Source of the DNA: Bacillota bacterium
GTDB lineage: Bacteria > Bacillota > Sulfobacillia > JAJZYS01 > JAJYTV01
Length of the DNA: 33,364 bases
NCBI GenBank assembly: GCA_021793645.1
Contig: JAJYSJ010000029.1
Coordinates: 1 to 33,364, forward strand
Reading direction: 5' to 3'
The notes beneath the pieces were generated by a model. It did not search any database, had not been told where the DNA came from, and saw only the letters and a program-made list of their open reading frames with translations. The position numbers and the translations under genes were made by a program. Within the stretch, counting starts at the first letter, position 1, and every line of letters begins with the position of its first letter. This document shows positions 483 to 25,855 of this stretch, one piece after another.

Positions 483-743
483 ATGGTGGGCATGCAAATC
501 GGCTCATGGCTGATTCTGGCCTTGGTGTTTGGTGCCGTGGCTGCACTTGCAGGATGGGCGGGTACCACGAAACGCCGATTGAAGGTCGAAGACAAGCTCC
601 GCGGTGCCAGCTTCCGCGCACAGCGGATGTTCGGCGTGGGAGTTCCTTCATTTACTCAGACCTCGGCTAGGCCTATCTCTTTGCGAAGGTTCGCTTTGAG
701 GACGTGGAAGACCTCATCGGGCGGTTCACGTCCATGGGGCTGA
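483..743 (+). CDS. Possible small membrane-anchored protein (fragment)
   Basis: The first ~50 residues hold one hydrophobic segment (LILALVFGAVAALAGWAG) followed by a basic stretch, as in a signal anchor or single-pass membrane protein. The last ~30 residues read across the upstream end of the FIMAH-like tail in another frame and look random, so the frame probably breaks around 640. It may be the N-terminal remnant of a secreted or membrane protein. No family is recognised. Confidence 0.25.
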   Translation: MVGMQIGSWLILALVFGAVAALAGWAGTTKRRLKVEDKLRGASFRAQRMFGVGVPSFTQTSARPISLRRFALRTWKTSSGGSRPWG

Positions 744-949
744 TCGCGAACCAGGGACTCGCTGAGAGCCTGACCGCCAAGCTGCGCGCAGCCGAGTCAG
801 CCCAATCGCGAGGCCAGACAGTAGCATCGAACACGCTCGGAGCATTCGTGAATGAGGTGAACGCGCAGTCGGGCAAGGGGATCGCCCCCGCTGCGGCGGC
901 GGTGCTGCTGCGGGACGCCCAGTACGTGCTCGCCTCCTGGGAGGGATGA
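671..949 (+). pseudogene. FIMAH-like C-terminal domain fragment, copy 1
   Basis: From about 704 this frame encodes an ~80-residue helical domain starting EDLIGRFTSMGLI and ending RDAQYVLASWEG. It resembles the FIMAH domain found at the C-terminus of large extracellular bacterial proteins. An in-frame TAG at 668-670 cuts it off from anything upstream, so only the tail of a larger gene seems to survive. The stop codon overlaps the ATG of the next membrane-protein gene (ATGA at 946-949). A paralogous copy with the same downstream partner lies at 11.1-11.4 kb. FIMAH is assigned by resemblance only. Confidence 0.55.
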
Positions 950-1491
950 ACCTCATGGATATCACGGCAGACGGGAGCCCCCCGAAGCGATCCGACCGGT
1001 GGGCAGTCCGATTAATGTGGATCATCCTGATCGGGTCGGTGGGATTCGCCGTGTGCTATGTGGAGGGCGGCCTACCGGATGCTGTTTCATTCGGCGGGGT
1101 TGCACTGGTCTTCTGGGGCTGGGACATCATCGTGATCGGGGCCATCTTCTCCGTCCTATCGTTGGTGTTCTCGGCCTGGCCGGGAAAGCGCGCCTTCTGG
1201 CTCGCCGTTACGCAGATGGCTGTCATCACCACCGTGCCTGGAGTCATTGTCACTGCCGTCCAGACGGCCCAGATCTTCCCGAACCCAGCTCCTGCAGCCA
1301 CCCAACTCGGCAACTACCTGCTCCTGCACAACTGGCCGGAGATCGTTTCCTACGACCTTGTGCTTGCTGGCGTCACCGCTTGGATAGCGCTGTTGCATTT
1401 CCCCCGCATTAGGGGCTGGCGCCTCTTAGTCTTCTGGACAGTGACTGTCGTCGTTTGCACGGCGATCGAAATCGTGATTCCCGTCCGTTAG
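946..1491 (+). CDS. Four-helix integral membrane protein, copy 1
   Basis: This 181-residue protein has a short hydrophilic N-terminus and about four to five hydrophobic helices, roughly at residues 21-40, 47-75, 82-105 and 130-180. Conserved-looking spots are SVLSLVFSAWPGKR in the middle and LLLHNWPEI before the last helices. A paralogue of identical length sits at 11360-11905 in the same order after a FIMAH-like tail, and similarity continues into the bases just after the stop (CCGCGGTTCG in both). The start overlaps the upstream stop by four bases, so the two frames are translationally coupled. Function is unknown. A role alongside a secreted partner is inferred only from the conserved pairing. 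Confidence 0.65.
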   Translation: MNLMDITADGSPPKRSDRWAVRLMWIILIGSVGFAVCYVEGGLPDAVSFGGVALVFWGWDIIVIGAIFSVLSLVFSAWPGKRAFWLAVTQMAVITTVPGVIVTAVQTAQIFPNPAPAATQLGNYLLLHNWPEIVSYDLVLAGVTAWIALLHFPRIRGWRLLVFWTVTVVVCTAIEIVIPVR

Positions 1492-2959: not shown

Positions 2960-3108
2960 AGATCGCTTCCACACCGACCTGGGATTCTACCTGAAGGGCA
3001 ACCTCAGGCAGGATGCCAAGGTGTTGGACGGTCTCGACGTCTACCGCACCGTCAAGGCGGTCGACGATGCATATCGCCTCGATGCGAGCGGAGCGCAAGA
3101 GTGGTAGA
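2960..3108 (-). pseudogene. brxL-like gene fragment (antisense relic)
   Basis: On the minus strand this stretch reads CIVDRLDGAVDVETVQHLG, close to residues ~86-105 of the intact BrxL-like protein at 7911-9953 (RIVDRLDVSVDVETGQHLA). At DNA level, the reverse complement of 3015-3078 matches 8162-8225 at 54 of 64 bases with no gaps (hand count). Outside this block similarity fades and no start or remaining domains are seen. It is therefore a fragment of a second, related copy in inverted orientation. Confidence 0.6.
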
Positions 3109-3296
3109 CGCGCTGACCGAGGTGCAGCATCTGGCCGAGCTGCTGCATGCCCGACAACAATTGAGAGCGTCTGATCGGCCCTGACCGTGGTACAGTCTTC
3201 CCATAGGCTAGTAGATCGAGGCAGCGCGGAGACTCTTTACGCGGCCAATCAACCTTACGTCACGGTATGTGTTGAGTGACCCAAGGAGGGATGATC

Positions 3297-4109
3297 GTGA
3301 ACCCTGAAGCAACTCTGGCCGCCGTCGACCAGAAGCAACGAGCGATTGCCCAGGCCCGGCCGTTGCCCAGGGCAACGCTCCTGTCCCTCGAAGATGACTT
3401 CACCATCCGCTACGCTTACAACACCACCGCCATCGAGGGCAACACGCTCACCCTCTCGGAGACGCAGGTAGTTCTGGAAGACGGTATCGCCATCGGCGGA
3501 AAGACGCTGCGCGAGCATCTCGAAGTGCTGAACATACGCGACGCGCTCAACTGGCTGCGCGAGGTCGTCCAGCAAACCGAGCCCGTCACAGACCGGAGCA
3601 TCCTCGCAATGCATCGGATCATCATGGCCGGCATCCTCAAGGAAGAAGCGGGCTTCTACCGCCGCCAGCCAGTCTACATCCGTGGTGCCTCCCATCTGCC
3701 GCCGAACTGGGTCAAGGTCCCCGAGCTCATGGAGGACCTTTCAAGCCGCCTCGAAGCCTCCCCTGGTGGGGAGCATCCGGTTGTCTTCGCGGCCACCGCC
3801 CACCTGGAGCTTGTCAGGATCCACCCGTTCGTGGACGGCAACGGGCGTACAGCCCGTCTGCTCACCAATCTCCTCCTCATGCGTTCCGGCTACCCACCCG
3901 CCATGTATTCGGTAGGAGAGCGCGCCGAATACATCGACGCCATCCGCGAAGCGGACACCGTCTCTCACGATAGGTTCATCATCCTGACCGCACAGGCGGT
4001 CGAGTTCATGCAGGACCGCTACCTCACCATGATCCACCAAGTCGAAGAAGGCGAGAGCACGCTGCAAAAGCAGCAGCGGAAGATTGAGGGACCCGACCTG
4101 GACCTCTAG
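3297..4109 (+). CDS. fic: Fic-domain protein (AMP-transferase type, N-terminally self-inhibited)
   Basis: This 270-residue protein carries the Fic signature HPFVDGNGRTAR at residues 176-187, with catalytic His and the phosphate-binding loop intact. It also has an N-terminal inhibitory-helix motif TTAIEGN at 43-49, matching the [S/T]xxxE[G/N] signature of class II Fic enzymes, where the Glu blocks ATP placement. Such enzymes usually AMPylate target proteins on Ser/Thr/Tyr. The C-terminal ~60 residues are helical and may help DNA binding or dimerisation. GTG 3297 is preferred because AAGGAGG at 3283-3289 lies seven bases upstream; in-frame ATG 3291 is only one base from it. The gene stands alone and is followed by a strong terminator. 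It could be a solitary toxin or a regulator. Confidence 0.9.
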   Translation: MNPEATLAAVDQKQRAIAQARPLPRATLLSLEDDFTIRYAYNTTAIEGNTLTLSETQVVLEDGIAIGGKTLREHLEVLNIRDALNWLREVVQQTEPVTDRSILAMHRIIMAGILKEEAGFYRRQPVYIRGASHLPPNWVKVPELMEDLSSRLEASPGGEHPVVFAATAHLELVRIHPFVDGNGRTARLLTNLLLMRSGYPPAMYSVGERAEYIDAIREADTVSHDRFIILTAQAVEFMQDRYLTMIHQVEEGESTLQKQQRKIEGPDLDL

Positions 4110-4356: not shown

Positions 4357-4583
4357 TTCCTTTGAGATGTGAGCAGCGCATCGTACCCACCGTCGCCGAA
4401 CTCGCGGATGTCTGGGGCCGGGTCTTTGCACACGCACAAAGGATGGGCCGACCGGCCAACGCTATGGATGCCCTTATAGCAGCTACGGGCATTTGCCATG
4501 GACTGATGCTTGTCACCAGAAATGCTTCGGACGTTGAGCATCTGGACGTGCCGCTCACGAATCCCTGGAGCGGTCTCTCGTAG
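4350..4583 (+). pseudogene. VapC-type PIN-domain toxin, C-terminal fragment 2
   Basis: The frame encodes the C-terminal half of a different VapC: WGRVFAHAQRMGRP, MDALIAATGICHGLMLVTRN, and a VPLTNPW ending. The DALIAATA and LVTRN blocks, including the last acidic active-site residues (MDAL, ASDVE), fit the FitB/VapC subgroup. The N-terminal half is missing; an in-frame TAG lies just upstream and the IS21 relic begins where the toxin should continue. No antitoxin gene is seen. Confidence 0.7.
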
Positions 4584-4714: not shown

Positions 4715-4729
4715 TCCGCATTTTGCGGA
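4715..4729. promoter_or_regulatory. Short palindrome upstream of the BrxL operon
   Basis: TCCGCA and TGCGGA flank three T residues, ending 30 bases before the first operon ATG. It could be an operator or a leader hairpin. I found no convincing -35/-10 pair nearby, so the assignment is tentative. Confidence 0.25.
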
Positions 4730-4759
4730 TGACGAAGCCTCGACGAAGAGCATCGCTCG

Positions 4760-5569
4760 ATGGAGGTGCATTATTTGGACGCCGAACTGGACTTGGACAA
4801 ACAGTCCGCCTTGGTACCGGCGGATATTCAAGAGACGTGGAAGACGTTGGGAAGAGCACTCGCGAGGGAGCGACGCCTCTCACAGCAGGTCATGAAAGCG
4901 AGCGAGCGCTGGGATCTGCGCCAACTGAGGCAGCGACTGCCGGAACTCCAGGCCGCCGTCGCGGAGGTGGCGGCAAGCGCCCAGAACGCGGAGAGGCTGC
5001 TCGCCGACTGGAGCGCAACCGCATCTTCGGATGGCGTTTTGTCCTACGTCGTGACCCTCGAGCAGGCCGTGCGGCAGTCGAGGCTGCCGCTGAGCGGAGA
5101 GTTCCCTGAGTATGAAGTGTTTCCGCTGGCGCTGCGATTGGACCTTAGCGGGGAGCAGGCGACGATCGGTCGCCGCAAGACGTCGACACTCGAGCCGTCT
5201 GCGCTTGCGCGCGAGGTGCAGCGTCTGTACCAGGCGGTGCACTCTTCAAGTTTCAACGCGCGGCGATTCATCGAGTCCCTCGTGGAGAGCCACGAACTGC
5301 TGAAGGCGTCGGGCAAGGCCAAAGGGCGTGCGGTGCAGCTCTCGCAGATCTACCGTCTGCTGACCCTGCGCACGGGAAGCGCGGGCTACACGAAGCAGGA
5401 GTTCGCGTTCGACATCTACCGGCTGCGCCGCGAGTCAGACCTCGTGCATGAGGGGAAGAGGCTCGCCTTCCAGCACGCGAAGCAGGGCGGTACTGCCGTT
5501 CCGAACGCGCAGGGTGGGGTGGACATGTTCGGCACGCTGGAGGTCTGGGAGGTAGAAGGAAGTGAGTGA
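4760..5569 (+). CDS. Helical protein of unknown family, first gene of BREX-like operon
   Basis: This 269-residue protein is not one I can place. Residues ~25-100 are strongly helical and charged (Leu/Arg/Gln/Glu heptad-like, probable coiled coil). Residues ~115-150 look like a small beta element (YEVFPLALRLDLSG, then QATIGRRKT). Residues ~150-245 are again helical and could form a winged-helix-like or adaptor region (YRLLTLRTGSAGYTKQEFAF). No catalytic motif, signal peptide or membrane segment is seen. It leads an operon: its stop overlaps the next start by eight bases. Position suggests an adaptor, nucleic-acid sensor or structural partner of the two ATPases. ATG 4760 lacks a strong ribosome binding site, so the start is less certain. 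Confidence 0.7.
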   Translation: MEVHYLDAELDLDKQSALVPADIQETWKTLGRALARERRLSQQVMKASERWDLRQLRQRLPELQAAVAEVAASAQNAERLLADWSATASSDGVLSYVVTLEQAVRQSRLPLSGEFPEYEVFPLALRLDLSGEQATIGRRKTSTLEPSALAREVQRLYQAVHSSSFNARRFIESLVESHELLKASGKAKGRAVQLSQIYRLLTLRTGSAGYTKQEFAFDIYRLRRESDLVHEGKRLAFQHAKQGGTAVPNAQGGVDMFGTLEVWEVEGSE

Positions 5570-6677
5570 GGGGGGGCCGTTCGTAGATCCCGCCGGAATC
5601 ACTGCATTCTGGCACGAGCAGTACCTCGACTCCTACGTGGCGCAGGGCGGATCGGCCGTCAAGTGGCTGCGCGGCAGGGAGGGGAGCGGCAAGACAGCGC
5701 TGCTCACCGAACTGCGGCGGTCGGCACGCGCGGACGGCTACTTCGTCGCAGCCGTTTCAGCGCGCGCGGTGCAGATCGGCCGCTTCGACGAGTTGTACCG
5801 GGCCATCCTCGGCCAGCTGCCGATCGAAGAACTCGGGGGCCGTTTCGCCGCGGAGGCGGCGCGGCGGGCGGGTGCAGGCTCTTTTCGCCCCGGCGTCGAC
5901 GGGGACCTGGACTCGTACCTCAGGGCCCAGGGCCGACCGGACGAGGCCGTGCAAGCGGAGCTCGCCAGCGCATTTGACTTTCTCTACACCGATCGAAACA
6001 TCGCGCCGCCCGTGGCCACGGCGCTGCGGCACATCGCGGCCGGACTCCTGCGCCCGTCGCTCGAGACGGACGTCCGCAGGGAGACCGCGAGCACTTGGAT
6101 CAGCGGCGGCAAGGTTTCCGCGTCGGAACGCCGCCGGGTGGGAATCGGTCTCGCCCTCGACCGCTACGGGGCGCGCGAGATCTTGCGGTCCCTGCTCTAT
6201 GCCAACCGCATGGTCCGTGGGAAGGGATTGGTCGTTACGATCGACGATCTCGACGGCCTGCTTGGTGGGGAGGGCCCTGTGCGCTATACGCGCCTTCGTC
6301 GCGACGACGCCTACGAGGCCATCCGTGAACTGATCGACGAAGGGGCCTCCATGCCTGGCCTTTTCGTGGCGTTCGCGGGACGTCGCGAGGCGTTCACGGA
6401 CGAGAAGGCCGGCTTGCGCAGCTACGCCGCGCTCGCGATGCGGGTCGAACCGGAGGTCGAGGCGGACCGCTGGAACCCGTTCGACGACCTGCAGGACCTG
6501 GACGCGCTGTGGCGAGAGGACTGGCCACGCTGGCGCAAGAGGCTGGAGCAGGCCTACGGGGTCGAGTCGCCTGAAGCGGTCGATGCGCAGCTTCTGGTTT
6601 CGATGGGTCCCGTCTCTCCGGTGAAGCTGCTGGTCGATGCCATCCACCGGCAAGGAGGCAGTGCCCATGGACAGTAG
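5562..6677 (+). CDS. BrxC/BrxD-like P-loop ATPase 1
   Basis: This 371-residue protein has a Walker A motif GREGSGKT at residues 38-45 and a Walker B motif VVTIDDLDGLL with the acidic pair at 228-229. A following strand LFVAFAGRREAF could hold the sensor. Overall it fits the STAND-related/DUF2791 ATPases that include BREX BrxD. Membrane segments are absent, so it is cytosolic. The GTG start overlaps the end of the preceding gene, and its own end overlaps the next ATPase gene, indicating tight translational coupling. Having two different ATPases in tandem suggests a hetero-oligomer or sequential loading onto DNA. The family is assigned by motif and context; no closer name is supported. Confidence 0.75.
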   Translation: MSEGGPFVDPAGITAFWHEQYLDSYVAQGGSAVKWLRGREGSGKTALLTELRRSARADGYFVAAVSARAVQIGRFDELYRAILGQLPIEELGGRFAAEAARRAGAGSFRPGVDGDLDSYLRAQGRPDEAVQAELASAFDFLYTDRNIAPPVATALRHIAAGLLRPSLETDVRRETASTWISGGKVSASERRRVGIGLALDRYGAREILRSLLYANRMVRGKGLVVTIDDLDGLLGGEGPVRYTRLRRDDAYEAIRELIDEGASMPGLFVAFAGRREAFTDEKAGLRSYAALAMRVEPEVEADRWNPFDDLQDLDALWREDWPRWRKRLEQAYGVESPEAVDAQLLVSMGPVSPVKLLVDAIHRQGGSAHGQ

Positions 6678-7911
6678 CGCGGCGCGCACAGCGGTCGAAC
6701 ACCTGCGGGCGGGAGTGCCTTCCGCCGGGGCAGCGCAAATGCTTTCCGTGGGCAGGCGGCGCATCCTGGGCGAGATCGAGGGGGAGCTTTTAGCGCTGCA
6801 GGCGGGCCGCCCGAGTCGCCATCTGCGGATCATCGCCGCGAACTACGGCGAGGGCAAGAGCCATACGCTGAACGCCGTGCGCGCGATCGCCGCGCACGAA
6901 CACTTTCTCGTCAGCCAGATCACGGTCAGCCGCGAGACGCCGCTCGACCGGGTCGATCGGGTCTACCGCAAGCTCGTCTCCAGGACCTACTACCCAGGCG
7001 TGGAACGACCGGGCATTGATCCGCTTCTGCACGAGATCTCGGAACGACCCGAGGCGGTTCAGCGCCTTCTGCGGTTCGCGCAGACGAAGCTGCACCCGAA
7101 GATCGGGCACGTGCTCGAGGCGCGCCTCGAGGGGAAGCGCGGCGACATCGAGCCGCTGGACGGAGACCTTTCGGGCTATCTGCTGCCGATGCCCGCCCTG
7201 CGGCGCGCGTACGACGACAACATGGGCCGTCGCCTGCCCAAGATGGACCGCTTCCCGCTGGACCAGAGATTCGACTACCTGCGGCTGATCGACGAAATGG
7301 CTGTGCTTGCCGGGCTGGCGGGCTGGCTGATCCTGATCGACGAGGTGGAGATGATCGGCCGGATTGGCCGGCGCGCCCGCGCGCTGTCGTATGCGCTGCT
7401 GAGGGACTTGAGCGATCCTGCTCGACTGCCCCACACGTATAGCGTCGCGGCCGTGGCGGCATCCTTCCAAGCCGACCTGACGGACCGGCTGGACGAGGCG
7501 GAGCAGCTTCCTCTCTGGTTGCGAGAGCGGGGACAAGACGAGTTGGCTGATGCGGTCCCGGGAATCGTCGGGCTGCTGGCAGGTGCGCCGCACCTGCCCC
7601 CGCTCTCCGAGGCGGACCTCGCCGAGGTGTTCGACGGCATCGCGCAGGCGCATGCTGTGGCTTACGGCTGGTCGCCGCCGCTCACGGGCTCAGACCTGCT
7701 GCAGCGTATCCGGGTGCCGCTGCGGGAGCGGGACATCAAGGTGCGTCAGCTCGTGCGCGCTGTCGTGCACTTCCTCGACCTGACCATGCGTTACGGCGAC
7801 CTGCCGCAACTGCGGGTGCACGGACTTGAGGAGCCGGTGCCGGCGCCATCCGAAGCGGACGATGGCGAGTTCCCCGAGGGCGACGACGTTGTGCGCGGCT
7901 GGTCTGGCTGA
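6667..7911 (+). CDS. BrxD-like (DUF2791) P-loop ATPase 2
   Basis: From ATG 6667 the product is 414 residues. It has the DUF2791/BrxD-style Walker A variant NYGEGKSHTLNAV (Lys64-Ser65, with the His that follows in this family) and Walker B LILIDEVEMI (Asp225-Glu226). The C-terminal ~60 residues are acidic. BrxD-type proteins act in BREX phage defence, where their exact role is open. AAGGAGG at 6652-6658 sits eight bases before ATG 6667, which fixes the start; the longer frame from 6637 is less likely. Its TGA shares a base with the ATG of the BrxL-like gene. Sequence differs markedly from ATPase 1, so this is not a recent duplication. Confidence 0.8.
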   Translation: MDSSAARTAVEHLRAGVPSAGAAQMLSVGRRRILGEIEGELLALQAGRPSRHLRIIAANYGEGKSHTLNAVRAIAAHEHFLVSQITVSRETPLDRVDRVYRKLVSRTYYPGVERPGIDPLLHEISERPEAVQRLLRFAQTKLHPKIGHVLEARLEGKRGDIEPLDGDLSGYLLPMPALRRAYDDNMGRRLPKMDRFPLDQRFDYLRLIDEMAVLAGLAGWLILIDEVEMIGRIGRRARALSYALLRDLSDPARLPHTYSVAAVAASFQADLTDRLDEAEQLPLWLRERGQDELADAVPGIVGLLAGAPHLPPLSEADLAEVFDGIAQAHAVAYGWSPPLTGSDLLQRIRVPLRERDIKVRQLVRAVVHFLDLTMRYGDLPQLRVHGLEEPVPAPSEADDGEFPEGDDVVRGWSG

Positions 7912-9953
7912 TGGCGTCGGAAGCCGGGCTTAACGACCGAGTCACGCAGGTGTTCGGAGCACTCGGCCAGGCGGTCGTACTGCCCAAGGGCCTGGCACTG
8001 CAGATGCAGGCGCAGGGCATGGTGCCGCGCTACGTCACCGAGTTCCTGCTCGCGCAGCGGCCTGCCGCGGAGGCGGTCGCGGCGATCCGCGACTACTTGG
8101 AGCAGCACCATCCCCTGCCGCGTGACCGCAACCTTTGGCGCCACCGGCTCGTCCAGGAGCGGGCGATGCGTATCGTCGATCGCCTTGACGTTTCGGTCGA
8201 CGTCGAGACGGGCCAACACCTTGCCAAGATTACGAGCCTGGGGCTCTCCTGCCGGATCGCCTCAGGAGTCGTCGACAGCCATCCCGGCCTCCTCAGTGGC
8301 GGCATGTGGGGGCGGATCGACCTTGTCTGGGATCCTATGGACGACGAGGTGCCTGCGACCGTGGTGCAAGACTTTCGCCCGGTTCAGGTCCAGGCACGTC
8401 TAGACCAGTATCTTGAAGGACGGCATTACTTCACCGCGGACGAGTGGATCGACCTTCTGCTCACGTCGGCGGGGTACGAACCCGCGGCGGTGTCGGATGG
8501 CCTTGATGCGCAGGACGCACTGCGGTGCAAACTGCTCATGCTCATGCGCCTGGCGCCACTTGCGGAGTCGTCTCTGCACACGCTGGAGCTCGGGCCAAAG
8601 AACACCGGCAAGACGTACATGGCGCGCAACATTTCGCCGGACGCGTTTGTGATCTCGGGGGGCGCAGTGACGCCTGCGAACCTCTTCGTCCACCTGACGA
8701 CGGGAGTTCCTGGCCTTCTGGCCCAGCGGCGCGTCGTGGCCTTCGACGAGGTGGCACGAGTGCGCTTGGGAAGCCCGGAGATGGTCGCCGCCCTCAAGGA
8801 CTTTCTGGAGAGCGGCCAATTTACGCGCGGGCGGTACGAGTTCGCCTCGGATTGCTCGGTGGTGCTGCTGGGCAATATCGACGTCGAGTCGGGCATGCCG
8901 TCTCCGCGGTATCGCCATCTGTGTGAGCCTCTGCCTCAGGAGCTGCGCGACAGCGCCTTCCTGGACCGCCTGCACGCCTACCTGCCAGGCTGGGAGCTGC
9001 CGAAGCTCGGACCCGACTCGTTCGCGCGGGGTGTCGGCTTCGTGTCAGACTACTTCGGCGAGGTGCTCGCGAGGCTGCGGTCGCTGCCCTTCGATGTGCA
9101 CTACCGCGAGATGGTCGACCCCTACCCGCTGCTGCCCGGCATGACGCGGCGCGACGCCGTGGCGGTGGAGCGGGTCGCGCGCGCGCTGTTGAAGCTTGTC
9201 TTTCCGACCGGGTCGGCGCACGCAGACCGCAACGTGGTCGAGGCGATTCTCTCGTTGGCCGGCGAACTCCGCCAACGTGTTCACGATCAGCTCTGCAGAA
9301 TCGCGCCCGGGGAGTTCCCGCCTCGTGCGGTCGGGTTCGCGGGAGTTCCGGGTTCGCCCGCCAGGGATTTGGCGCACAAGGGGACGGCGCCAGTGCGCGT
9401 CGGTGCGTCTCCCGGCGAGACGTTGTTCCTCGACCGGGAGGTAGCAGCGGAGGAGGGAGGCGGAAAGGTCCTGCAGGTTGAGGCGTCAGTCCTTGCGACT
9501 GGCCGTGGGCTCAAGCTGCAGGGACGCCTGGGACCGGACGCGGCGGAGGCGGTGCGCATCGCCTACAGCTATGTCGTCGCGAACGCCCGTGCCCTGCACT
9601 TCGAGCCGCACGCGGTCACGGAGCGGGCGATCGCACTGCAGGTGTCGCTCGGGGCGGTGGTCGATGGACGCACCCTTGCGTTGCCTGCGTTCTTGGCCAT
9701 GATGTCCGCCCTGCGGCGAGAACCCTTCCGTCTGCCAGTGGCCGCACTGGGGAGCAGCTCGCTGCACGGGCGACTGCAGATGCCCGACGACGTGGTGTCG
9801 CGGCTCGGTGCGCTGCAGGGTCTGGATCCGGGAGTGCTCGTCTTGCCAAGCCTGTCCCATGGCGCGGAGGAAAAGGTTCGTGAACTGCTGCGCGGCTGGA
9901 GGGTCGTCGTCGCCGGCGACCTCGGGTCTGTTATGCGCACCCTTAGTCTCTGA
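7911..9953 (+). CDS. brxL: BrxL-like AAA+ protein with Lon-like C-terminal domain
   Basis: The 680-residue length and layout match BREX BrxL. Residues ~1-200 are the N-terminal region (VDVETGQHL; LLSGGMWGRIDLVWDP). The AAA+ core has Walker A GPKNTGKT at 228-235, Walker B VVAFDEV with Asp279-Glu280, a VVLLGN sensor, and DRLHAYLPGW ahead of the lid. Residues ~490-680 form a Lon-protease-like domain in which the catalytic Ser block is DGRTLALP instead of DGPSAG and the usual Lys region is not recognisable, so peptidase activity is unlikely. BrxL acts as a DNA-bound ring in BREX. It is the last gene of the operon. An inverted fragment of a relative lies at 2960-3108. Confidence 0.88.
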   Translation: MASEAGLNDRVTQVFGALGQAVVLPKGLALQMQAQGMVPRYVTEFLLAQRPAAEAVAAIRDYLEQHHPLPRDRNLWRHRLVQERAMRIVDRLDVSVDVETGQHLAKITSLGLSCRIASGVVDSHPGLLSGGMWGRIDLVWDPMDDEVPATVVQDFRPVQVQARLDQYLEGRHYFTADEWIDLLLTSAGYEPAAVSDGLDAQDALRCKLLMLMRLAPLAESSLHTLELGPKNTGKTYMARNISPDAFVISGGAVTPANLFVHLTTGVPGLLAQRRVVAFDEVARVRLGSPEMVAALKDFLESGQFTRGRYEFASDCSVVLLGNIDVESGMPSPRYRHLCEPLPQELRDSAFLDRLHAYLPGWELPKLGPDSFARGVGFVSDYFGEVLARLRSLPFDVHYREMVDPYPLLPGMTRRDAVAVERVARALLKLVFPTGSAHADRNVVEAILSLAGELRQRVHDQLCRIAPGEFPPRAVGFAGVPGSPARDLAHKGTAPVRVGASPGETLFLDREVAAEEGGGKVLQVEASVLATGRGLKLQGRLGPDAAEAVRIAYSYVVANARALHFEPHAVTERAIALQVSLGAVVDGRTLALPAFLAMMSALRREPFRLPVAALGSSSLHGRLQMPDDVVSRLGALQGLDPGVLVLPSLSHGAEEKVRELLRGWRVVVAGDLGSVMRTLSL

Positions 9954-10251
9954 GCAATGCCCTCGGATGTGGGCGTGCGCCCATCCTCGCGTCGACCTCC
10001 GGTTGCGGCGGACTGGAAGAGATGAAGGAGGATACGTCGCCTAGAACATCTACCGCAGCCAGGCGCCCGACATCTTGGCCAGGGTAGCCTCTTTTGGGGT
10101 AATGATCAGTTGCAGCCTCCCCAGGCGAACGATGCGCGATAGCGCACATTGCTTACCGGGGTGCGAAGGCCGACGGCGGGACCAGTGATGATTTGGTTAC
10201 AGCCGGATGTGGAGCAGACGGCCATGCCGAACAGTGGGGGATAAGGAAGGA

Positions 10252-10629: not shown

Positions 10630-11363
10630 CTGGGACTGTGAGTCGTGTCAATCCTACAGCGTCTCCTGGGAGGCGAGAAGAGGTTCGGGCACTTCGCATT
10701 CCAATCCGTTCTTCGAAGTCGAGTTCGAGACATTGTCGATGCCCTTCCTGGGTGACCGTCACCGGGGGAGAGAGCTCGGCCACGCCCGAGCCCGGGTGCC
10801 CGTCGATCAAGGGCGGGTCGGACGTACTCCACTGGACGGTCACGTGCCACCGACCATGACCATCACCGGGTCCCAGGACGCCACCTACCTCGACGACCAG
10901 ATTCCTCACGCCGTCCTTCTCGGCGACCGACAGCCTCTCGGGGGTCGACACGGTGGAAGCGAGCGTCTACGGTCAGGCCGCCACGGACTGAGAGGCTATG
11001 CACCTCTGGCAGCTCCTCCTTGGACAGGTTCCGTTCACTGTGGCGGCCACCGACAACGCCGGCAACGTGGCGAACCAGACGGTTACCTTCACCGTGACGA
11101 CGAGCATCGCGAGCATGGAAGACCTCGTCGGGCGGTTCACATCCATGCAGCTCATCACGGACCGGGGACTGGCCGGGGGCCTGACCGCCAAGCTGCAAGC
11201 GGCCGCCTCATCCCAATCGCGGGGCGACCAGTCGGCGGCAGCGAACGAACTCGGGGCGTTCGTGAACGAGGTGAACGCGCAGACGGGTAAGGGCATCGCA
11301 TCCGCCGCGGCGGCGGTGCTCATGCGTGACGCCCAATACGTGCTCAACTCCTGGGAGGGATGA
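10630..11363 (+). pseudogene. Secreted Ig-like/FIMAH protein, frameshifted, copy 2
   Basis: Successive plus-strand frames each give protein-like text in the right order for one extracellular protein: NPFFEVEFETLSMPF (~10700-10745), VTVTGGESS and VLHWTVTC (~10750-10850), TMTITGSQDATYLDD (~10857-10900), TPSFSATDSLSGVDTVEASV ending in TGA (~10910-10990), then PFTVAATDNAGNVANQTVTF and a FIMAH-like tail (11028-11363). At least four frame changes are needed, so this is a decayed gene. The middle parts look like Ig-like/Big repeats with the typical ATDxxSG and ATDNAGN turns. Only the frame from 10998 to 11363 is still open. It ends by overlapping the membrane-protein gene, as in copy 1. Confidence 0.65.
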
Positions 11364-11905
11364 ACTTGGCCGACATGATGCCAGACGATAGCCACCCGCA
11401 GCGATACGAGCCTTGGGCGGTCCGAGCGCTTTGGATCGTCCTGCTCGCCACGGCGGGCTTCGCCGCATGGGTTTACGCGGAGGGTGGACTGCTGACGGCA
11501 CTGGTGTTCGTCGCGACCGAACTGATCGTGTGGATCTGGGGCATCTTCAAGGTCGGCATGATCTTCGCCGTCCTCTCGCTGGGGCTTTCAGCGTGGCCTG
11601 GAGCGCGTTCCCTCTGGCTCGGCACCACGGTGGTGTCGGTCCTCGTTTCCGTTCCCTGGAGCATCTACAGCGCCGATGCGACCGTCTACAGCTTGCCCCA
11701 CCCAGCCCTTCGATCCGCGTTCTGGGAATACCTGCTGGTGCACAACTGGCCTGAGGTCATCGCCTTCGCCCTCGTGGTCTTGGTCGTCACGACGTGGGTG
11801 ACACGGTTGTATTTCCCCAAGCTGCGAGGCTGGTACTTTGCTATCTTCTGGACCGTCACCGTCGCTTGGTTACTGATGCTTCCCGCCACGCTGCCCCTGG
11901 GCTAG
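11360..11905 (+). CDS. Four-helix integral membrane protein, copy 2
   Basis: A 181-residue paralogue of the protein at 946-1491, equal in length and with the same hydrophobic pattern. Shared blocks include WAVR near residue 19, FAVLSLGLSAWPGAR in the middle, LLVHNWPEV, and the last helix preceded by FPKLRGW. The ATG overlaps the TGA of the FIMAH-like tail. The frame is intact although its upstream partner is frameshifted. Function is unknown. Conservation with many synonymous and conservative differences between copies suggests both were under selection for some time. Confidence 0.65.
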   Translation: MNLADMMPDDSHPQRYEPWAVRALWIVLLATAGFAAWVYAEGGLLTALVFVATELIVWIWGIFKVGMIFAVLSLGLSAWPGARSLWLGTTVVSVLVSVPWSIYSADATVYSLPHPALRSAFWEYLLVHNWPEVIAFALVVLVVTTWVTRLYFPKLRGWYFAIFWTVTVAWLLMLPATLPLG

Positions 11906-12082: not shown

Positions 12083-13290
12083 TCACAGGCTACCGGAGCC
12101 CTCGACGTCGAGGAATTCGCCGTCGGGCAGGGCATTGCGGATCGCCCTCTGAACCAGCGCGTAGACGAGATAGGCCATCAGCATGACGTAGCCGAAGGCA
12201 GCGACGCGGGTGGGGCGCTTGAGGAACACCGGGGAGACGTACACAGGGCTCTTCAGCCAGCGGAACTCAGATTCCGCCGCCGCCTGGCCACGGTAGGACA
12301 AGAAGAGATTCTTGGCGGTACGGGACGTGTCGTTGCTGATGAGGACAAAGGTGGACTGCCAGCGGCACTCGCGCTCGAAGGCGTCCCGATCCAGTGCGGC
12401 TGGTGCGAGGTGGATACGGTAGACGGTCGCGCCGGCAGGAGGCTCCTCTGCCTTGGCTGGTCGCCCTCGGCGGCGCGGCGGCTCTATCACCGCTTCCTCG
12501 ACATAGTGCTCCGTGGTCCAAAAACGCAGCCCCAGTTGGCCCAGTAGCGTCTGCAAGGCTGCCTCGGCGTCCTCGTGGCAACTGAAGGTCTCACGCCCGA
12601 TCTTGCGCCCAGCGCGCTGGATCGCTTCCCGCTCCTTGTCCGCCTTGCGCTCCAGAGCCTTCTGCTTGAGCTCGAAGAGCCGCGAGGATCGTACGACGAT
12701 CAGGCGGTACTCCCGCTCCTCGATCTCGCCCGGCAACTGGTACTCGGATGCCTTCTTCTCATGCGCAAGCTTGCCGATGTCTTCCCACTTGTCGGCGGGG
12801 CCATAGAGCGCTTCCGAGCGCGCGACCGTCGCATAGCCGAACGTGTCGGGCAGACGGGAGACGAAACGGTAGCCGCCCTGGTCGAGATGCCTGAGGTTGT
12901 CGCCCGTGATCAACGTCGAGTCGGCCACGAACAGGGTCTGCTGTCGCTTCTCCGGGCCGATCCAGCCCTCGAGCCAGTCGAGCGCCAAGGCCTTGTCGTT
13001 CAGCTGTTCGGCCGCCACCCCTTGCCCGAGCAGCAGTTCCACATCGCGATGCGTGTACGCTTCCTCGATCCGGTAGAGCGCTTTGCGGTCCTCGATGTAG
13101 GCGATCACCAGTGCCAGGATGCGCTGGCCAGGGCTCACGGCGCACTGCATGGGATCCCATGGCAAGAGCTCGTTCAACGTTTCGACGAACTGCATCCGCT
13201 GCACAAACTCCCGCACTACCAAGCCGACGCCCACGTCGTACGCGGCGGCACCTTGATGTGTGAGAGGAAAGTTGCCAGTTCTTCGTCCAT
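12083..13290 (-). mobile_element. IS1634-family transposase, damaged
   Basis: The main frame (12083-13234) encodes 383 residues of an IS1634-type DDE transposase. Recognisable are RILALVIAYIEDRKALYRIE, FVADSTLITGDNL with the first catalytic Asp, YRFVSRLPD, and the C-terminal AESEFRWLKSPVYVSPVFL with the catalytic Glu. A good N-terminus, MDEELATFLSHIKVP, lies at 13290-13246 in another frame and would join AYDVGVGLVV if one base were restored near 13245. The C-terminus stops at EFLDVEGSGSL soon after the last helix, shorter than family members I know. I could not find terminal inverted repeats or a target duplication. It is probably inactive. Confidence 0.75.
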
Positions 13291-16752: not shown

Positions 16753-17922
16753 TTCGAGTCCCTCCTGTCAGTCCCGGTCTGCCAACACTGTCTGCTTCTG
16801 ACGCTACGCCAGGGTGACGGTAGCCACAAGTGGGCTTCGCAGCGAAAAAATGAAGGCGGAGAAGCAAGGCTCCCTTCACGGGGTGTGCGTGGAAGGCTGA
16901 CCTTCGATGCCCGTCCGGCATCCTGACCGCCATCGCGGCTTGGTACGCGTCGGCCGCAGGCATACTCAACAGCACTGCCGGCAAGGTCGTCGCTCCTTTC
17001 TGGCCGTACTCCAAGTCGGCCAAAAGGCAGAAGAACCCGCCTTTGGCGGCCCTAATCTTTGTCGATCGTTCCTCCGCTGCACACCACGCGAAAGAGGCGT
17101 GGCGCACAAAACCTGTCGTGCCCTTGCGTCCAGCAGAAGGGGCCACAAGAACCCCATCCCTATCCAAATGCTTGATCCTGCATGGTCTTCCATAGCAACC
17201 GCGTAACGGAGGGCGCTCTCCGCGCTGACATCGCCCGTCCCGGCCTCTTGACACAGGGACAGAAGGTCACTCTGATGCTCGGGTTTCGGGAGATCCCGCG
17301 CTCTTGCGAAAATCCGGCAAGAACGCGGGTTCACTTGGCTCACGGCCGCCCCTTGGAATCGGCGCCCGGCCATCGACGCCAACAGAATCAGGCTGGGCAG
17401 ACGCCGAGCGTGCGTACCAGCAGACAGCCCTGTGCTCCGCAGCGGCTGATGTTCTTGTGCGCGCCAGTTCACCGTCCCCCTAAGGAGCTGTATCTCGGCG
17501 CCGTGTGGCATCCGCAGTCCCCCGGAGAAGGCATTTGCATGGGTCTTTGCTTCAGAACGAGGCAGTTCAGATGGCGCGGATGGACCGAAGCGGCTAAATG
17601 CCATAACTGCACGATGGCGTGTGCACGCCGCCGAACGGACGAGAACGCGCTATCTGCAGGGCGCAAGGCCCTGCGCACGTGGCGGGAGCCTGCCACAGAC
17701 GCTCGCGTTCTTGGGGCCTTCTGTCCGGCGCTTGTTCCACCCGCAGGGCACATGGCGAGGGTGCAGGCGGCGGGCGAGATGGGGCCTGCTATGGCGGGGT
17801 GCAGTGCGAACGGTGTAAGGATTGACGCCCTTCGGAGATGTCGCCGAGCAGGTGCGCGCCGTACAGTACATTTGGGAACTAAATCACAAGCGTCCGAAGT
17901 TGGATGTGGGAGGAAGAACAAG
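16753..17922. other. Long gap upstream of tusA with only weak traces
   Basis: About 1.2 kb without a convincing gene. Long open frames exist on both strands (minus 16966-17604 and plus 17182 into tusA) but lack sensible composition and start signals. One plus-strand stretch near 17597-17625 gives KCHNCTMACARR, a CxxCxxxC pattern that could be a scrap of an Fe-S protein, which would fit the Hdr locus, but it is too short to name. The tusA promoter must lie in the last ~100 bases; CAGTACATTT near 17866-17875 is less GC-rich than its surroundings. Confidence 0.3.
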
Positions 17923-18177
17923 ATGTCCATGCTAGAGCTCTCCACCCTCCAGGCTCAGAAGATTGTGGACGCGCGCGGAACGGGCTGCCCGGGACCGATC
18001 CTGGCGGCGAAGAAGGGCATCGTCGACGTGAAGGTCGGTGAGATCATGGCGGTCCTTGCGACGGACGGCGGCACCAAGAAAGACCTGCCTGCCTGGGCCA
18101 AGAAGATGGGCCACGAGTTCCTCGGCGTGATCGAGGAGCAGGGGTACTTCAAGCTCTTCGTCAGGCGGGCGAAGTAG
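17923..18177 (+). CDS. tusA: TusA sulfur-carrier protein
   Basis: An 84-residue TusA-family protein with the RGTGCPGPILAAKK signature; Cys22 of CPGP is the persulfide carrier. The rest (VGEIMAVLATDGGTKKDL, W, GHEFLGVIEEQGYFKLFVRR) follows the normal beta-alpha-beta fold. TusA moves sulfane sulfur between proteins in the cytosol. In Hdr-type loci it is thought to hand sulfur from DsrE to the Hdr complex. GGAGGA eight bases before ATG 17923 sets the start; the open frame upstream is long but non-coding in look. It heads the tusA-dsrE-mvhD-hdrA-hdrA-qmoC cluster. Confidence 0.93.
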   Translation: MSMLELSTLQAQKIVDARGTGCPGPILAAKKGIVDVKVGEIMAVLATDGGTKKDLPAWAKKMGHEFLGVIEEQGYFKLFVRRAK

Positions 18178-18215
18178 AGGTCCCAAAGAAGCCGCGCCAG
18201 CTATGGCGTGGCTGA

Positions 18216-18443
18216 GCCTGTGCGGGCCACGCCGGCCCCTTCACGTGGTGCTGCGGCGCCCCCGCCGAGTCCCTCTGCCCGCGAGCCGCCAAGACCGAGC
18301 GGCGCCTGGAGGAACTGCAGGCCTGTCGCAGAGCGCGGCGTCACGATTTGTCCTTTCTGCTGCGCCAACTTGCAGAAGGCAGCAAAGGACCGTATGTGCC
18401 TCGAGGAATCTCCGACTACCTGCGCCGGGCCGATGAGGCCTGA
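18216..18443 (+). pseudogene. HdrB/HdrD-like CCG-domain protein, frameshifted C-terminal fragment
   Basis: In one frame the strand reads WCCGAPAESLCPRAAK and RRLEELQAC, then in a shifted frame VAERGVTICPFCCANLQKAA, then back in the first frame VPRGISDYLRRADEA and a stop. Joined, this is the C-terminal part of a CCG-domain Fe-S protein (CCGAPAESLFP..., TACPFC..NL, DISDYL), as in HdrB, HdrD and GlcF-like subunits. Two compensating frame changes are needed, near 18324 and 18390. An in-frame TGA at 18213-18215 precedes it and no N-terminal part is seen. It lies exactly where a catalytic HdrB would be expected in an Hdr cluster. Confidence 0.65.
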
Positions 18444-18466
18444 GGCGCCAGTGGAGGCACTGCAAA

Positions 18467-18943
18467 GTGGAGACCACGAAGAAGACCATCATCGTGTTCA
18501 GCGGCGATTTCGACAAGGTCCTGGCCGCATTCATCATTGCGAACGGCGCGGCGGCCATGGGCGACGATGTGACGATGTTCTTCACGTTCTGGGGGCTCAA
18601 CGCCCTGCGAAGGCCCGTGGCTCCGCAGCACGAGAAGAGCTTCCTGCAGGGCATGTTCGGCGGCATGATGCCGCGCGGCCCGGAGAAGCTCGGCCTTTCG
18701 AAGATGAACTTCGGCGGCATGGGCCCCAAGATGATGCGCAAGGTCATGCGCCAAGAGGGCGTGACGTCGCTCGAAGAACTGATCCAAACCGCAAAGGACC
18801 AGGGCATCAAGATGATCGCCTGCACCATGTCGATGGACGTCCTCGGCTTCAAGGAGGACGAACTGATCGACGGGCTCGAGTTCGCAGGCGTCGCCACCTA
18901 CCTAGGCGAGGCCGACGAGGCGAACGTCAACCTCTTCATTTGA
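18467..18943 (+). CDS. dsrE: DsrE-family sulfurtransferase (DsrE3-like)
   Basis: A 158-residue DsrE/DsrF-superfamily protein. It begins with KTIIVFSGDFDKVLAAFIIA, then DDVTMFFTFWGLNAL, a Met/Gly-rich loop, and the active-site region KMIACTMSMDVLGF in which Cys119 should carry the persulfide. The FFTFWGLN and ACTMSMD blocks match the DsrE3-type proteins found with TusA and sHdr genes in sulfur oxidisers. It probably passes sulfur to TusA in the cytosol. GTG 18467 has GGAGG ten bases upstream. It follows tusA with the HdrB-like relic in between. Confidence 0.9.
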   Translation: METTKKTIIVFSGDFDKVLAAFIIANGAAAMGDDVTMFFTFWGLNALRRPVAPQHEKSFLQGMFGGMMPRGPEKLGLSKMNFGGMGPKMMRKVMRQEGVTSLEELIQTAKDQGIKMIACTMSMDVLGFKEDELIDGLEFAGVATYLGEADEANVNLFI

Positions 18944-19312
18944 TCCCTCGGGTGGACATCTCCCTTGAAAGGTGCTTCTGTCCGGCCACAGGACCGGGGT
19001 GCCGGCAAGGAGGTGCGAGATAGGCGGCGGCATTTTAGGCGCGAACCACCGCCAGCACCATGATCGGCGGGGCGATGGCGGGCGACAGAGGGGTGGACGT
19101 CTACCTGCTGCTCGCAAGTGCCTGCGCCTTCGTCGTGGGCACCGACAAGGCAGCCTGCGACGCAAGAGGGCCGGATATCCCACGCTTGGCAAGACGAAGG
19201 CCATCGACGCCCCGGGGTGGCCAGGGGCACTGCCCTAGGTGAAGAAGGAGCCGGCAGCGTCGCGATCGGTGCGGAGCGCCAGGCCGAGGACCTTCGCGAA
19301 GGAGGGATTGAA
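18944..19312 (+). other. Gap with a possible DsrE-like scrap
   Basis: The frame at 19060-19242 starts MIGGAMAGDRGVDVYLLLAS and ACAFVVGTDKAACDARG, resembling the second strand and helix of DsrE-type folds, then degenerates into Arg/Pro-rich text. It could be a broken second DsrE-like gene. Evidence is thin; it may equally be chance. Confidence 0.3.
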
Positions 19313-19738
19313 GTGACCAAAACGCTCACGACCGCCGAGGCGTCCCGCAGAGCCTCGCCGCGCGTCCTCGTCTTTTCCACGAACACGATCTCCGACCCTG
19401 GCATCGATCTGGCAGGGAGCAGGCACCTGCACTACTCCCCTGGGGTTGTCGTGATCAGCCTGCCGTGCGCGAGCGGAATCAAGCCGAGCTGGATTCTTCA
19501 CGCACTCCAGCATGGCTTCGACGGCGTGTTCGTCGCCGCGGACGGGGACGAGTGCGCCTACCTATCCGACTGCAGTGTCCGGTCCGCAGGGATCGTCCAG
19601 CAGGCGCAGGCACTGATGGCGGAGCATGGGATCGCCGCGAACCGTGTGAAGATGGCGGCGATCTGCTCTGTGTGCGCGGAACCGTTCACCCGGCAGGTGA
19701 TCGAATTCAGTGAGGCGCTAGCGGAGGCGGTGGTGTAG
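19313..19738 (+). CDS. MvhD/FlpD-like hydrogenase iron-sulfur (delta) subunit, divergent
   Basis: A 141-residue protein with the MvhD fold pattern: RVLVFSTNT strand, SPGVVVISLPCASGIKPSWI, LQHGFDGVFVAADGDECAY, and a C-terminal MAAICSVCAEPF. MvhD normally links a hydrogenase or QmoB-type protein to HdrA through a [2Fe-2S] cluster. Here Cys52, 81, 87, 118 and 121 are present, but the usual N-terminal CCxxC is replaced by STNTIS, so cluster binding must differ from the canonical form. AAGGAGG at 19299-19305 lies seven bases before GTG 19313. The stop directly abuts the start of the large HdrA gene, so the two are surely cotranscribed. Confidence 0.82.
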   Translation: MTKTLTTAEASRRASPRVLVFSTNTISDPGIDLAGSRHLHYSPGVVVISLPCASGIKPSWILHALQHGFDGVFVAADGDECAYLSDCSVRSAGIVQQAQALMAEHGIAANRVKMAAICSVCAEPFTRQVIEFSEALAEAVV

Positions 19739-22462: not shown

Positions 22463-24183
22463 GCGAGCGACGCATTGGCGTCTTCATCTGCCACTGCGGC
22501 GGGAACATCTCCGACTACGTGGACGTTGCGCAGGTCCGCGACGCCATCAAGGACGAACCGGATGTAGTGGTCGCCCAGACCACGATCTTCGCCTGCGCCG
22601 ACGCCACCCAGCAGGACATGGTGCAGGCCATCCAGGACGAGCAACTCGACGGCCTCGTGGTGGCGTCCTGCTCACCCAAGCTGCACACGTTCACGTTCCG
22701 CGGCGTGGCGAAGCGGGCAGGCATGAATCCCTACCTGTACACCCAGGTGAACATCCGGGAGCAGGACTCCTGGGCCCACACCGACGACCCCGTCGGAGCG
22801 ACGGAAAAGGCGATCCGCCTCGTCAAGGCGGGCATCGCCAAGACCCGGCTCTCAAGCCCCCTCGAGCCCATCGAGGTCGAGACGACGCCGAAGACGATGG
22901 TGATCGGCGGGGGCATCACGGGACTGCGAGCGGCCATCGGCCTTGCGGACATCGGCCTCGGCGTCTATCTGATCGAGCGCGAACCGGAACTCGGCGGGTG
23001 GGTGGCGCAGTTCGGCGCGATGTACCCGCATGAGCGCAAGGGGCGGGAGCTGATCCAAGAGCTGGTCGCGGAGGTGCGCAGGCGTCCCTCCATCGTCGTC
23101 TTCACAAAGGCTGAGCTCATGGCCAAGTCGGGCAGCTTCGGCAACTACCTCACAGAGGTGCGCGTCAATAGCGGCGTGCCCGACCTGATCCATCTCGAGG
23201 TCGGATCGATCGTGGTGGCCACCGGCTTCGACGCGTACCAGCCGGAGGTCGGCGAGTACGGGTATGGCATCGACGGGGTCCTCACCCTGCCGGAATTCAA
23301 GGCCCTCATCGACAGCTCCGAGGGATCTCTCACGTACCACGGCCGGAAGGTGGGCACGGTCGCCTACATTTACTGCGTGGGCAGCCGGCAGCCCGAAGGC
23401 AACGCGTACTGCTCGCGGTACTGCTGCGCGGCCACGGTGCACGCCTCGCTGAAGGTGGCGGAGATCGACCCGAAGCTGCACCAGTACCACCTCTACCGGG
23501 ACATCCGCACCTACGGCAAGTACGAGCTGATGTACACGGAGTCCCGAGAGCGCGGCTCGGTATACATGAAGTTCCCCGAGGACACGCCGCCGGCGGTGGC
23601 ACGAGGCGCGTCCGGACAGCTCACGGTCACGACCCACGACACGCTCACTGGCGGCGAGGAACTCACCATCCCGGCCGACCTCGTGGTCCTCGTCACCGGC
23701 ATGGTGCCGCGGCGGAATGACACGCTGATGAGCGTCCTCAAGCTGCCCATCGGAAGCGACGGGTTCTTCAACGAGATCCACCCCAAGCTGCGCCCGGTCG
23801 AGACCGTCGTCGACGGCGTCCTGATCGCAGGCACGTGCCAGGGACCCAAGAACTCCTCCGAGAGCGTCGCTTCGGGCCTCGCGGCGGTGACGCAGAGCGG
23901 GGCCATCCTGAAGAAGGGCGTGGCCGAGCTCGATCCGCTCGTGGCCACGGTGAACACCACGGCCTGCACGTGGTGCGGCAAGTGCGAGGAGACCTGCCCG
24001 TACGCCGCCGTCGAGAAGACATCCGCCGACGGGCGAGAGGTGGCGGCGATCAACGCCACCGTCTGTAAGGGCTGCGGCGGATGTACCCCAGTCTGTCCCG
24101 AGGGCGCGATCGACCTGCGCGGCTACACCGACGCCCAGATCCAAGCCATGATCGAGAACCTGGCGGAGGTGCCGGTCGTATGA
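22459..24183 (+). CDS. hdrA2: Second HdrA-like flavoprotein with two C-terminal [4Fe-4S] motifs
   Basis: A 574-residue HdrA. The N-terminus RIGVFICHCGGNIS and a CSPKLHTFTF block are standard HdrA. The FAD fold is at ~150-185 (MVIGGGITGLRAA, REPELGGW). CSRYCCAATVHASL matches the Fe-S-binding CSxxCCxxxxK region. Two ferredoxin-like motifs close the protein: CTWCGKCEETCPYAA and CKGCGGCTPVCPEGA. It would form the electron-transfer core with the fused HdrA upstream, as QmoA and QmoB do. Four-base ATGA overlaps link it to both neighbours. Which HdrA faces the membrane subunit cannot be told from the sequence. Confidence 0.92.
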   Translation: MSERRIGVFICHCGGNISDYVDVAQVRDAIKDEPDVVVAQTTIFACADATQQDMVQAIQDEQLDGLVVASCSPKLHTFTFRGVAKRAGMNPYLYTQVNIREQDSWAHTDDPVGATEKAIRLVKAGIAKTRLSSPLEPIEVETTPKTMVIGGGITGLRAAIGLADIGLGVYLIEREPELGGWVAQFGAMYPHERKGRELIQELVAEVRRRPSIVVFTKAELMAKSGSFGNYLTEVRVNSGVPDLIHLEVGSIVVATGFDAYQPEVGEYGYGIDGVLTLPEFKALIDSSEGSLTYHGRKVGTVAYIYCVGSRQPEGNAYCSRYCCAATVHASLKVAEIDPKLHQYHLYRDIRTYGKYELMYTESRERGSVYMKFPEDTPPAVARGASGQLTVTTHDTLTGGEELTIPADLVVLVTGMVPRRNDTLMSVLKLPIGSDGFFNEIHPKLRPVETVVDGVLIAGTCQGPKNSSESVASGLAAVTQSGAILKKGVAELDPLVATVNTTACTWCGKCEETCPYAAVEKTSADGREVAAINATVCKGCGGCTPVCPEGAIDLRGYTDAQIQAMIENLAEVPVV

Positions 24184-25606: not shown

Positions 25607-25612
25607 CGGTAT

Positions 25613-25664
25613 CGTCCAAACCTCGGCCTGCCTTTCCGGCGGGTCGAGGTTTGGACGCCTTTTG
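25613..25664 (+). terminator. Strong intrinsic terminator ending the hdr/qmo operon
   Basis: CGTCCAAACCTCG (25613-25625) pairs perfectly with CGAGGTTTGGACG (25645-25657), followed by CCTTTTGG. The loop holds a small extra pairing. It begins seven bases after the qmoC-like stop, so the hyf genes downstream are a separate transcription unit. Confidence 0.9.
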
Positions 25665-25855
25665 GGGATCAGCGAGCGCAAAGGGTCTACGACAATGTGG
25701 ACGAAGGGGCGCCGATGCTCCAGCACGTGCAAGCAAAGCGCACGCGGGGATACCGTGCCATGGGCTACGAACCGATGTGAGGCTGCGGCTCCACCGAGGC
25801 GGCCATTGACGATTGCCGCCAGGCGCGGGGGATATCAACTGATCGAACATTCCTA

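Follow-up and report, generated by a model that had tools for sequence, protein, structure and literature searches.

What does a BrxL protein do in an operon that holds neither PglZ nor a PglX-type methylase? This question is raised by positions 4760-9953 of contig JAJYSJ010000029.1 from a Bacillota genome (assembly GCA_021793645.1); positions 1 to 33,364 of this contig were analyzed and are called the window below. The operon consists of four overlapping open reading frames (ORFs), all in the same direction, in the order P1-P2-P3-P4, the last of which encodes BrxL. After comparing it with homologous loci, we conclude that the operon is not a bacteriophage exclusion (BREX) system and that its conserved unit is the trio P1-P2-P3, whose neighbor changes from clade to clade. 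With moderate confidence, we propose that the trio is a module resembling the origin recognition complex (ORC) and Cdc6, which loads or licenses an exchangeable helicase effector, here BrxL, on foreign DNA.

The operon occurs twice in the assembly of the window genome, and its features are as follows.

4728..9977, forward strand: 5.25-kb unit present twice, with its copy at 990-6237 of contig C6; the two are 91.6% identical by sequence comparison.
4762..4768, forward strand: GGAGGTG, probable ribosome-binding site of P1; the second copy also has GGAGGTG, then ATG.
4775..5569, forward strand: P1, putative adaptor or sensor protein without a known family (Pfam, PADLOC and NCBIfam scans; AlphaFold2).
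5562..6677, forward strand: P2, BrxD-type AAA+ ATPase of 371 aa (PF10923, 82.6 bits; motif census).
6637..7911, forward strand: P3, BrxD-type AAA+ ATPase of 424 aa (PF10923, 86.6 bits; motif census).
7911..9953, forward strand: P4, BrxL, an MCM-like AAA+ protein with a C-terminal Lon fold (Pfam, NCBIfam, PDB 8emc, Lon alignment).

The four overlapping genes of the original prediction, which was made from the window's letters, are real, as judged from the ORF calls, the Pfam and NCBIfam matches, the second copy and the homologous operons. P1, which had been started at 4760, probably begins at TTG 4775, 6 nt downstream of GGAGGTG; the corresponding codon of the second copy is ATG. P3 may begin at GTG 6661 instead, a position at which the second copy also has GTG.

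P4, previously described as a BrxL-like AAA+/Lon-like protein, is BrxL. It matches Pfam BrxL_ATPase, BrxL_N and Lon_C, is named BrxL by PADLOC as well and passes the NCBIfam BrxL model TIGR02688 with 389 bits (cut-off 329.3); moreover, its residues 23-630 align with the solved BrxL structure PDB 8emc at an E value of 2.6e-69. When P4 was aligned to Lon, the positions that we take to be the catalytic Ser and Lys were occupied by Thr and Val, respectively. An active Lon protease is thus ruled out by the replaced Ser-Lys dyad. P4 agrees in this with the inactive Lon dyad of BrxL reported in the consulted excerpts of a 2026 BREX survey (PMC12839542).

According to the same excerpts, BrxL is specific to type 1 and type 4 BREX (PMC12839542). 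P4 resembles the BrxL of these types in passing the family cut-off and aligning with 8emc, whereas the window operon lacks PglZ, a PglX-type gene and BrxC. The predicted absence of PglZ and PglX-type genes held in the window and across the genome, which is 96.3% complete: PglZ was not found above the Pfam cut-off (one 22-bit sub-threshold match lies on another contig), and neither was an Eco57I-type methylase, the sole methylase family searched. The large BrxC/PglY ATPase is not among the four proteins, the best PADLOC BrxC match being 9 bits, on P3. P1 matched neither BrxA nor BrxB in the Pfam, PADLOC and NCBIfam scans, and no genome-wide search was aimed at these families. An already named system was also ruled out within PADLOC, which returned single components only (BrxD, SngB and BrxL) together with chance-level matches.

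The same picture was obtained elsewhere. PglZ or Eco57I matches lay beside the trio in none of the 35 P1-bearing genomes scanned, which were those known after the phylum sample and before the later class and out-of-phylum additions; many trio contigs are short, which makes this a partial test. On contigs that also carry a trio, the nearest PglZ lies about 14 kb away (G268), and the nearest Eco57I gene is at a distance of about 33 kb (G027). One could still regard P1-P4 as a reduced or decayed BREX, a remnant that uses PglZ and PglX encoded elsewhere or that is dying. BrxL and BrxD-type proteins are indeed BREX parts, and in some trio genomes PglZ and Eco57I matches lie close together, as they do in BREX, although on contigs different from that of the trio (G230:C22, G061:C82 and G030:C10). 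However, the window genome has neither above the cut-off, neither P2 nor P3 reaches the cut-off of the BrxD equivalog, and the four-gene order recurs in other genomes. Both copies in the window genome are also open: all four genes lack stops, and 290 synonymous codon differences were counted against 110 non-synonymous ones (raw counts rather than dN/dS, including a few codons ahead of the likely P1 start). Mostly synonymous differences point to selection for the proteins. We consider a reduced or decayed BREX very improbable. The C6 copy may be a strain variant or an assembly contaminant instead of a true duplicate.

Among the 101 genomes of the relatives set, 21 contain P1, as do 18 of 398 sampled across the phylum and 43 of 154 of the class; these sets overlap, and each includes the window genome. 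It was also present in 5 of 20 genomes of another class, once as a 66-aa fragment (G484, left out of the fetched loci). In the phylum of a Gemmataceae genome, 8 genomes out of 294 gave weaker P1 matches (E 3e-4 to 1e-10). No P1 was found in the same-genus genome G001. Of 69 loci (68 plus the window), 62 have P1, P2 and P3 in order on the same strand, some of them cut at contig ends; the remaining 7 are contig-end cuts, fragments or cases where P2 was scored as P3. The weak out-of-phylum matches are backed by gene position, since five of the eight (L108 and L110-L113) show P1, P2, P3 and then a helicase gene; L109 is cut, and L114 and L115 are less clear. Homologous trios in so many genomes rule out a BrxL operon peculiar to the window genome, and the four-gene order, which had been suggested as a check, recurs elsewhere. 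One BrxL without a trio (L003, 44% identity) came up in the scan of genome contigs.

The mobility of the unit bears on a further explanation, in which the trio and its motor are part of a transposon or plasmid-like element whose replication or targeting they control. The 5.25-kb unit does occupy two sites with different flanks (alike only in a 245-bp match at 70% and a short brxL fragment, window 3014-3078), and transposase-like ORFs lie near both copies. On contig C6, this ORF and a PIN-type ORF carry labels that are our own reading. However, the window P1 found no match among 72,556 plasmid and 50,697 phage records, and no transposase or integrase was seen to recur as a fixed component of the unit. 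Additionally, one CRISPR-type P1 used as a query found no match in the plasmid records, and one viral-contig scan gave none that was confirmed. We judge a mobile-element module to be quite improbable.

The neighbor of the trio varies. A tree was built by a quick method from the joined P1, P2 and P3 of 59 loci, after excluding contig-end cuts (L028, L034, L041 and L109), a cut locus with a split P1 (L107), a fragment (L085), a locus where P2 was scored as P3 (L114) and three loci with a trio whose partner is cut off or unclear (L032, L101 and L115). Among the 59 loci, 21 have BrxL as the neighbor, 7 a DEAD helicase, 5 Shango-type genes, 4 type I cas genes, 4 a divergent XPB-like helicase, 3 an SNF2 helicase and 2 a superfamily 1 (SF1) helicase, while 13 have none that was recognized. 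L035-L037 are near-copies from three genomes, and the P2 of L113 is a short row. These eight states require 10 changes on the tree, compared with a mean of 34.4 after shuffling, and 0 of 200 shuffles were as low. The DEAD, Shango, CRISPR, XPB and SF1 loci each form one supported clade, while BrxL and the unrecognized state account for 3 changes each and SNF2 for 2. The coupling between trio and neighbor is thus stable inside clades and different among clades, although the long DEAD and SNF2 (L083 and L084) branches meet and deep placements are uncertain. Within 20 BrxL loci, P1, P2 and P3 distances track BrxL distances with r of 0.96-0.98, as expected of a co-inherited unit. Since the trio is constant and its neighbor varies, the predicted "BrxL operon" describes the window locus correctly and is too narrow as a name for the conserved unit, P1-P2-P3, to which BrxL is one of several neighbors.

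Neighbor labels without a Pfam or PADLOC test of their own rest on similarity to a tested gene. The DEAD helicases lie downstream of the trio, and the three tested (L087, L110 and L112) scored best with the PADLOC profiles SngC and BrxHI; in L087, a BrxL also lies 3.5 kb upstream. The XPB-like neighbors were checked by Pfam in L076 and L080 (in L082, the label is a piece at a contig end), and the SNF2 neighbors in L049 and L083. The two SF1 neighbors come with a sub-threshold PLD-like stretch.

The two ATPases are asymmetric. As predicted, they are two distinct P-loop proteins of the BrxC/BrxD type, and both exceed the PF10923 (BrxC_BrxD) cut-off of 22.2 bits. Against the NCBIfam BrxD equivalog NF033438, P2 scored 86.8 and P3 59 bits (curated cut-off 350); PADLOC similarity to SngB is weak (31 and 38 bits), and no PDB sequence match was found for either at E 0.1. 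In the window, Walker A is intact in both (GREGSGKT in P2, ANYGEGKS in P3), and Walker B is intact in P3 (LILIDEVE) and replaced by DDLD in P2. The same holds widely: the P3 Walker A is kept in 58 of 59 tree rows, the exception being L093, whose P3 is split over two ORFs, and its Walker B reads DE in all 55 readable rows. The P2 Walker A is kept in 52 of 59 rows and missing from all four CRISPR loci, two SNF2 loci and the short row L113; its Walker B could be read in 58 rows and has the Glu in 7, namely six DEAD-clade loci and an XPB locus. Therefore, P2 drifts toward a pseudo-ATPase while P3 stays intact. ORC likewise mixes complete and degenerate AAA+ subunits, such as Orc2 and Orc3, according to the excerpts consulted of PMC10164562.

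P1 had been called an unrecognized helical protein, and it still lacks a family: nothing exceeded the thresholds of Pfam, PADLOC and NCBIfam (DIRP 18.5 bits against a cut-off of 27; PbeC 14 bits, E 0.003), and PHROGs gave no match. A profile search returned chiefly coiled-coil and designed proteins (best E 0.006). AlphaFold2 modeled P1 with a predicted local distance difference test (pLDDT) score of 90.4, and its C-terminal part with 92.4, as a long N-terminal helical hairpin, a beta segment and a C-terminal part that is tentatively a winged helix. In the Foldseek check that had been suggested, neither P1 nor its C-terminal part found a PDB match at E 0.001 or better. The VIA structural rows for full-length P1 cover the helical hairpin alone. 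For the C-terminal part, the top structural matches are titled ORC, forkhead, cohesin and condensin (Z 5-5.7 over 63-80 residues), and we read them as winged helices from these titles. Since these Z scores do not rise above the level that the tool terms common, the model only suggests that P1 may bind DNA through a winged helix.

Above, we proposed that the P1-P2-P3 module loads or licenses a helicase effector; the mechanism could be as follows. P2 and P3 would constitute an asymmetric ORC/Cdc6-like AAA+ pair, in which P3 hydrolyzes ATP and the role of P2 is either to bind nucleotide or purely structural. In turn, P1 would bring this pair to DNA or bridge it to the motor. On foreign DNA, recognized perhaps by replication intermediates or ends and not by methylation, turnover by P3 would open or activate the motor, here the MCM-like BrxL ring. 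The activated motor would then occupy or unwind the DNA and block replication without cutting it. The anti-phage activity and the methylation-free distinction of self from non-self of the original interpretation are likewise putative. No nuclease family was matched by P1-P4 in Pfam, PADLOC and NCBIfam, and the Lon dyad is gone; thus, a replication block is likelier than cutting. The window operon holds no more than such a loader model requires: an adaptor, a pair of ORC-like ATPases and an MCM-like ring. A loader or licensing factor would also be expected to accompany other helicases, as this trio does. Among the traits of an ORC/Cdc6-like loader, the active-site motifs are intact in P3, and the winged helix of P1 is tentative. 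In the consulted excerpts of PMC10164562, BrxL is described as MCM-like and BrxC, BrxB and BrxD as ORC-like, and loading of BrxL on phage DNA is speculated. In a full-text search confined to PubMed Central, we recognized no description of the trio, and one may have been published elsewhere.

Several observations weigh against this proposal. BrxL has not been demonstrated to be a helicase, as stated in those excerpts (PMC10164562), and the structural Z scores of P1 lie within the range that the tool calls common. A motor or defense-gene neighbor was counted at 46 of the 59 tree loci, a raw count without a random-gene baseline; at the other 13, where the neighbors are partly annotated, no adjacent helicase was recognized. 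Some labels are thin: L043 is assigned to BrxL by a partial match of 100 aa (25 bits) at the edge of its contig, Cas6 is the sole cas gene seen in L079, which shows no Cas3, the Cas3-like gene of L075 lies 3.9 kb off, the helicase of L113 is 1.5 kb from its trio, and the SF1 label of L029 was inferred from the rest of its P1 at the end of an SF1-bearing contig (L028). Moreover, the SbcCD-like, RecD2 and RmuC genes at single loci also fit DNA repair.

XPB and SNF2 helicases serve in repair too, and the trio might recruit helicases to the cell's own damaged or stalled DNA as a genome-integrity complex, with defense secondary or absent. SbcC/SbcD-like genes by one SNF2 trio, RecD2 near one trio and RmuC near one speak for it. 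The presence of the trio is patchy, however, both in the class and in the phylum sample, with none in G001; in addition, defense machinery adjoins it (Shango-type genes at five loci, cas genes at four), and one genome holds two diverged copies. We regard a repair complex as unlikely. The trio could also be a sensor or abortive-infection device in which P2-P3 is a signaling ATPase switch that activates its partner without DNA loading. A constant trio with a varying neighbor and a pseudo-ATPase P2 would suit such a regulatory role, but the recognized neighbors are nucleic-acid motors and not toxins, and we find this rather improbable.

Among the closest known systems is the BrxD-BrxHI dyad of type 2 BREX, in which BrxD may load BrxHI according to the consulted excerpts of PMC12839542. 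Both arrangements place an ORC/Cdc6-type AAA+ protein beside a helicase, with helicase loading proposed, and the trio DEAD helicases of L087, L110 and L112 have BrxHI and SngC as their best-scoring profiles. In contrast to the dyad, the trio has two diverged ATPases instead of one, plus P1; no PglZ or PglX-type gene was found with it, and its neighbors are other than BrxHI.

Shango is a tested anti-phage system composed of a TerB-like protein, an ATPase and a DEAD/DEAH helicase, as described in the consulted excerpts of PMC10250203. Joined to the trio at five loci, on its upstream side, are genes resembling SngB and SngC, together with a further gene where SngA would be; the PADLOC names were checked in L030 alone, and the SngA label in the relatives is by position. 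The window operon differs in having no SngA or SngC and only weak P2/P3 similarity to SngB, and P1 had no TerB match in the Pfam, PADLOC and NCBIfam scans. Since the trio resembles Shango in its logic of ATPase plus helicase, we place it with systems of this kind and not with BREX.

Type I CRISPR-Cas (I-D and related) is linked at four loci, where trios adjoin cas genes on the same strand; the window operon has no adjoining cas gene, and P1-P4 match no Cas family. L071 reads Csc2, a family-less ORF, Cas3d, P1-P2-P3 and Cas1, with a repeat array further along. In L074, the trio lies between Cas3 and Cas1. L075 shows Cas7, two unlabeled ORFs, the trio and a Csa1/Cas1-like stretch, with the weak Cas3-like gene upstream, and in L079 the trio is followed by Cas6 near the contig end. 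Repeats were sought with a crude finder, which flagged only L071 and L047. At L047:9279-10256, it marked up to 17 regularly spaced CRISPR-like repeats, which precede a trio of the BrxL type by about 3.5 kb, and the gene between repeats and trio matches DruA and DDE transposase domains.

More tentatively, we speculate that the trio may be a general licensing module of prokaryotic immunity, in which an ORC/Cdc6-like pair and a winged-helix adaptor gate unrelated motors (BrxL; the superfamily 2 helicases DEAD, SNF2 and XPB; SF1; Cas3) onto foreign DNA. The means by which BREX-type ATPases bring BrxL or helicases to invading DNA are an open question, and a four-protein system free of methylase and PglZ would make this step testable alone. 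Additionally, a trio that stands beside Shango-type genes at some loci and among type I cas genes at others would connect, by a shared control step, systems that have so far been considered separate.

Other trio neighborhoods deserve mention. SbcC/SbcD-like genes and an SNF2 helicase bracket the trio at L049:4443-16063, possibly as a six-gene system; RecD2 and RmuC were seen near one trio each. Three related trios without a helicase (L072, L073 and L077) have a helix-turn-helix gene directly upstream, and in L072 a DNA methylase and a Uma2 endonuclease are encoded close by. In L035, L036, L037 and L038, of which three are near-copies, the BrxL-type trio is preceded by an SNF2-like helicase at a distance of about 3.3-3.5 kb. 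Downstream of BrxL, L033 and L038 carry SngC-like genes (47 and 53 bits), so a larger island may be shared.

Around the operon, the window contains the following features.

3014..3078, reverse strand: inverted 65-bp fragment, 84.6% identical to brxL 8162-8226 (window self-comparison), probably a relic of a further brxL.
3276-4109: Fic gene (Pfam).
4362-4580: PIN fragment, sub-threshold.
12086-13234: DDE-transposase-like ORF.

The predicted island of toxin and insertion-sequence relics thus stands in part, with the Fic gene and the DDE-transposase-like ORF present and the PIN fragment sub-threshold only. The operon is also flanked by two direct copies of about 750 bp (window 705-1450 and 11116-11864, 70.7% identical), each of which contains the end of a similar ORF and then a hydrophobic protein of 181 aa that belongs to no Pfam family. 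Further downstream, at 17182-28266, Pfam identified TusA-like, flavin/4Fe-4S oxidoreductase and Proton_antipo_M membrane genes, which look like ordinary energy metabolism unrelated to the operon.

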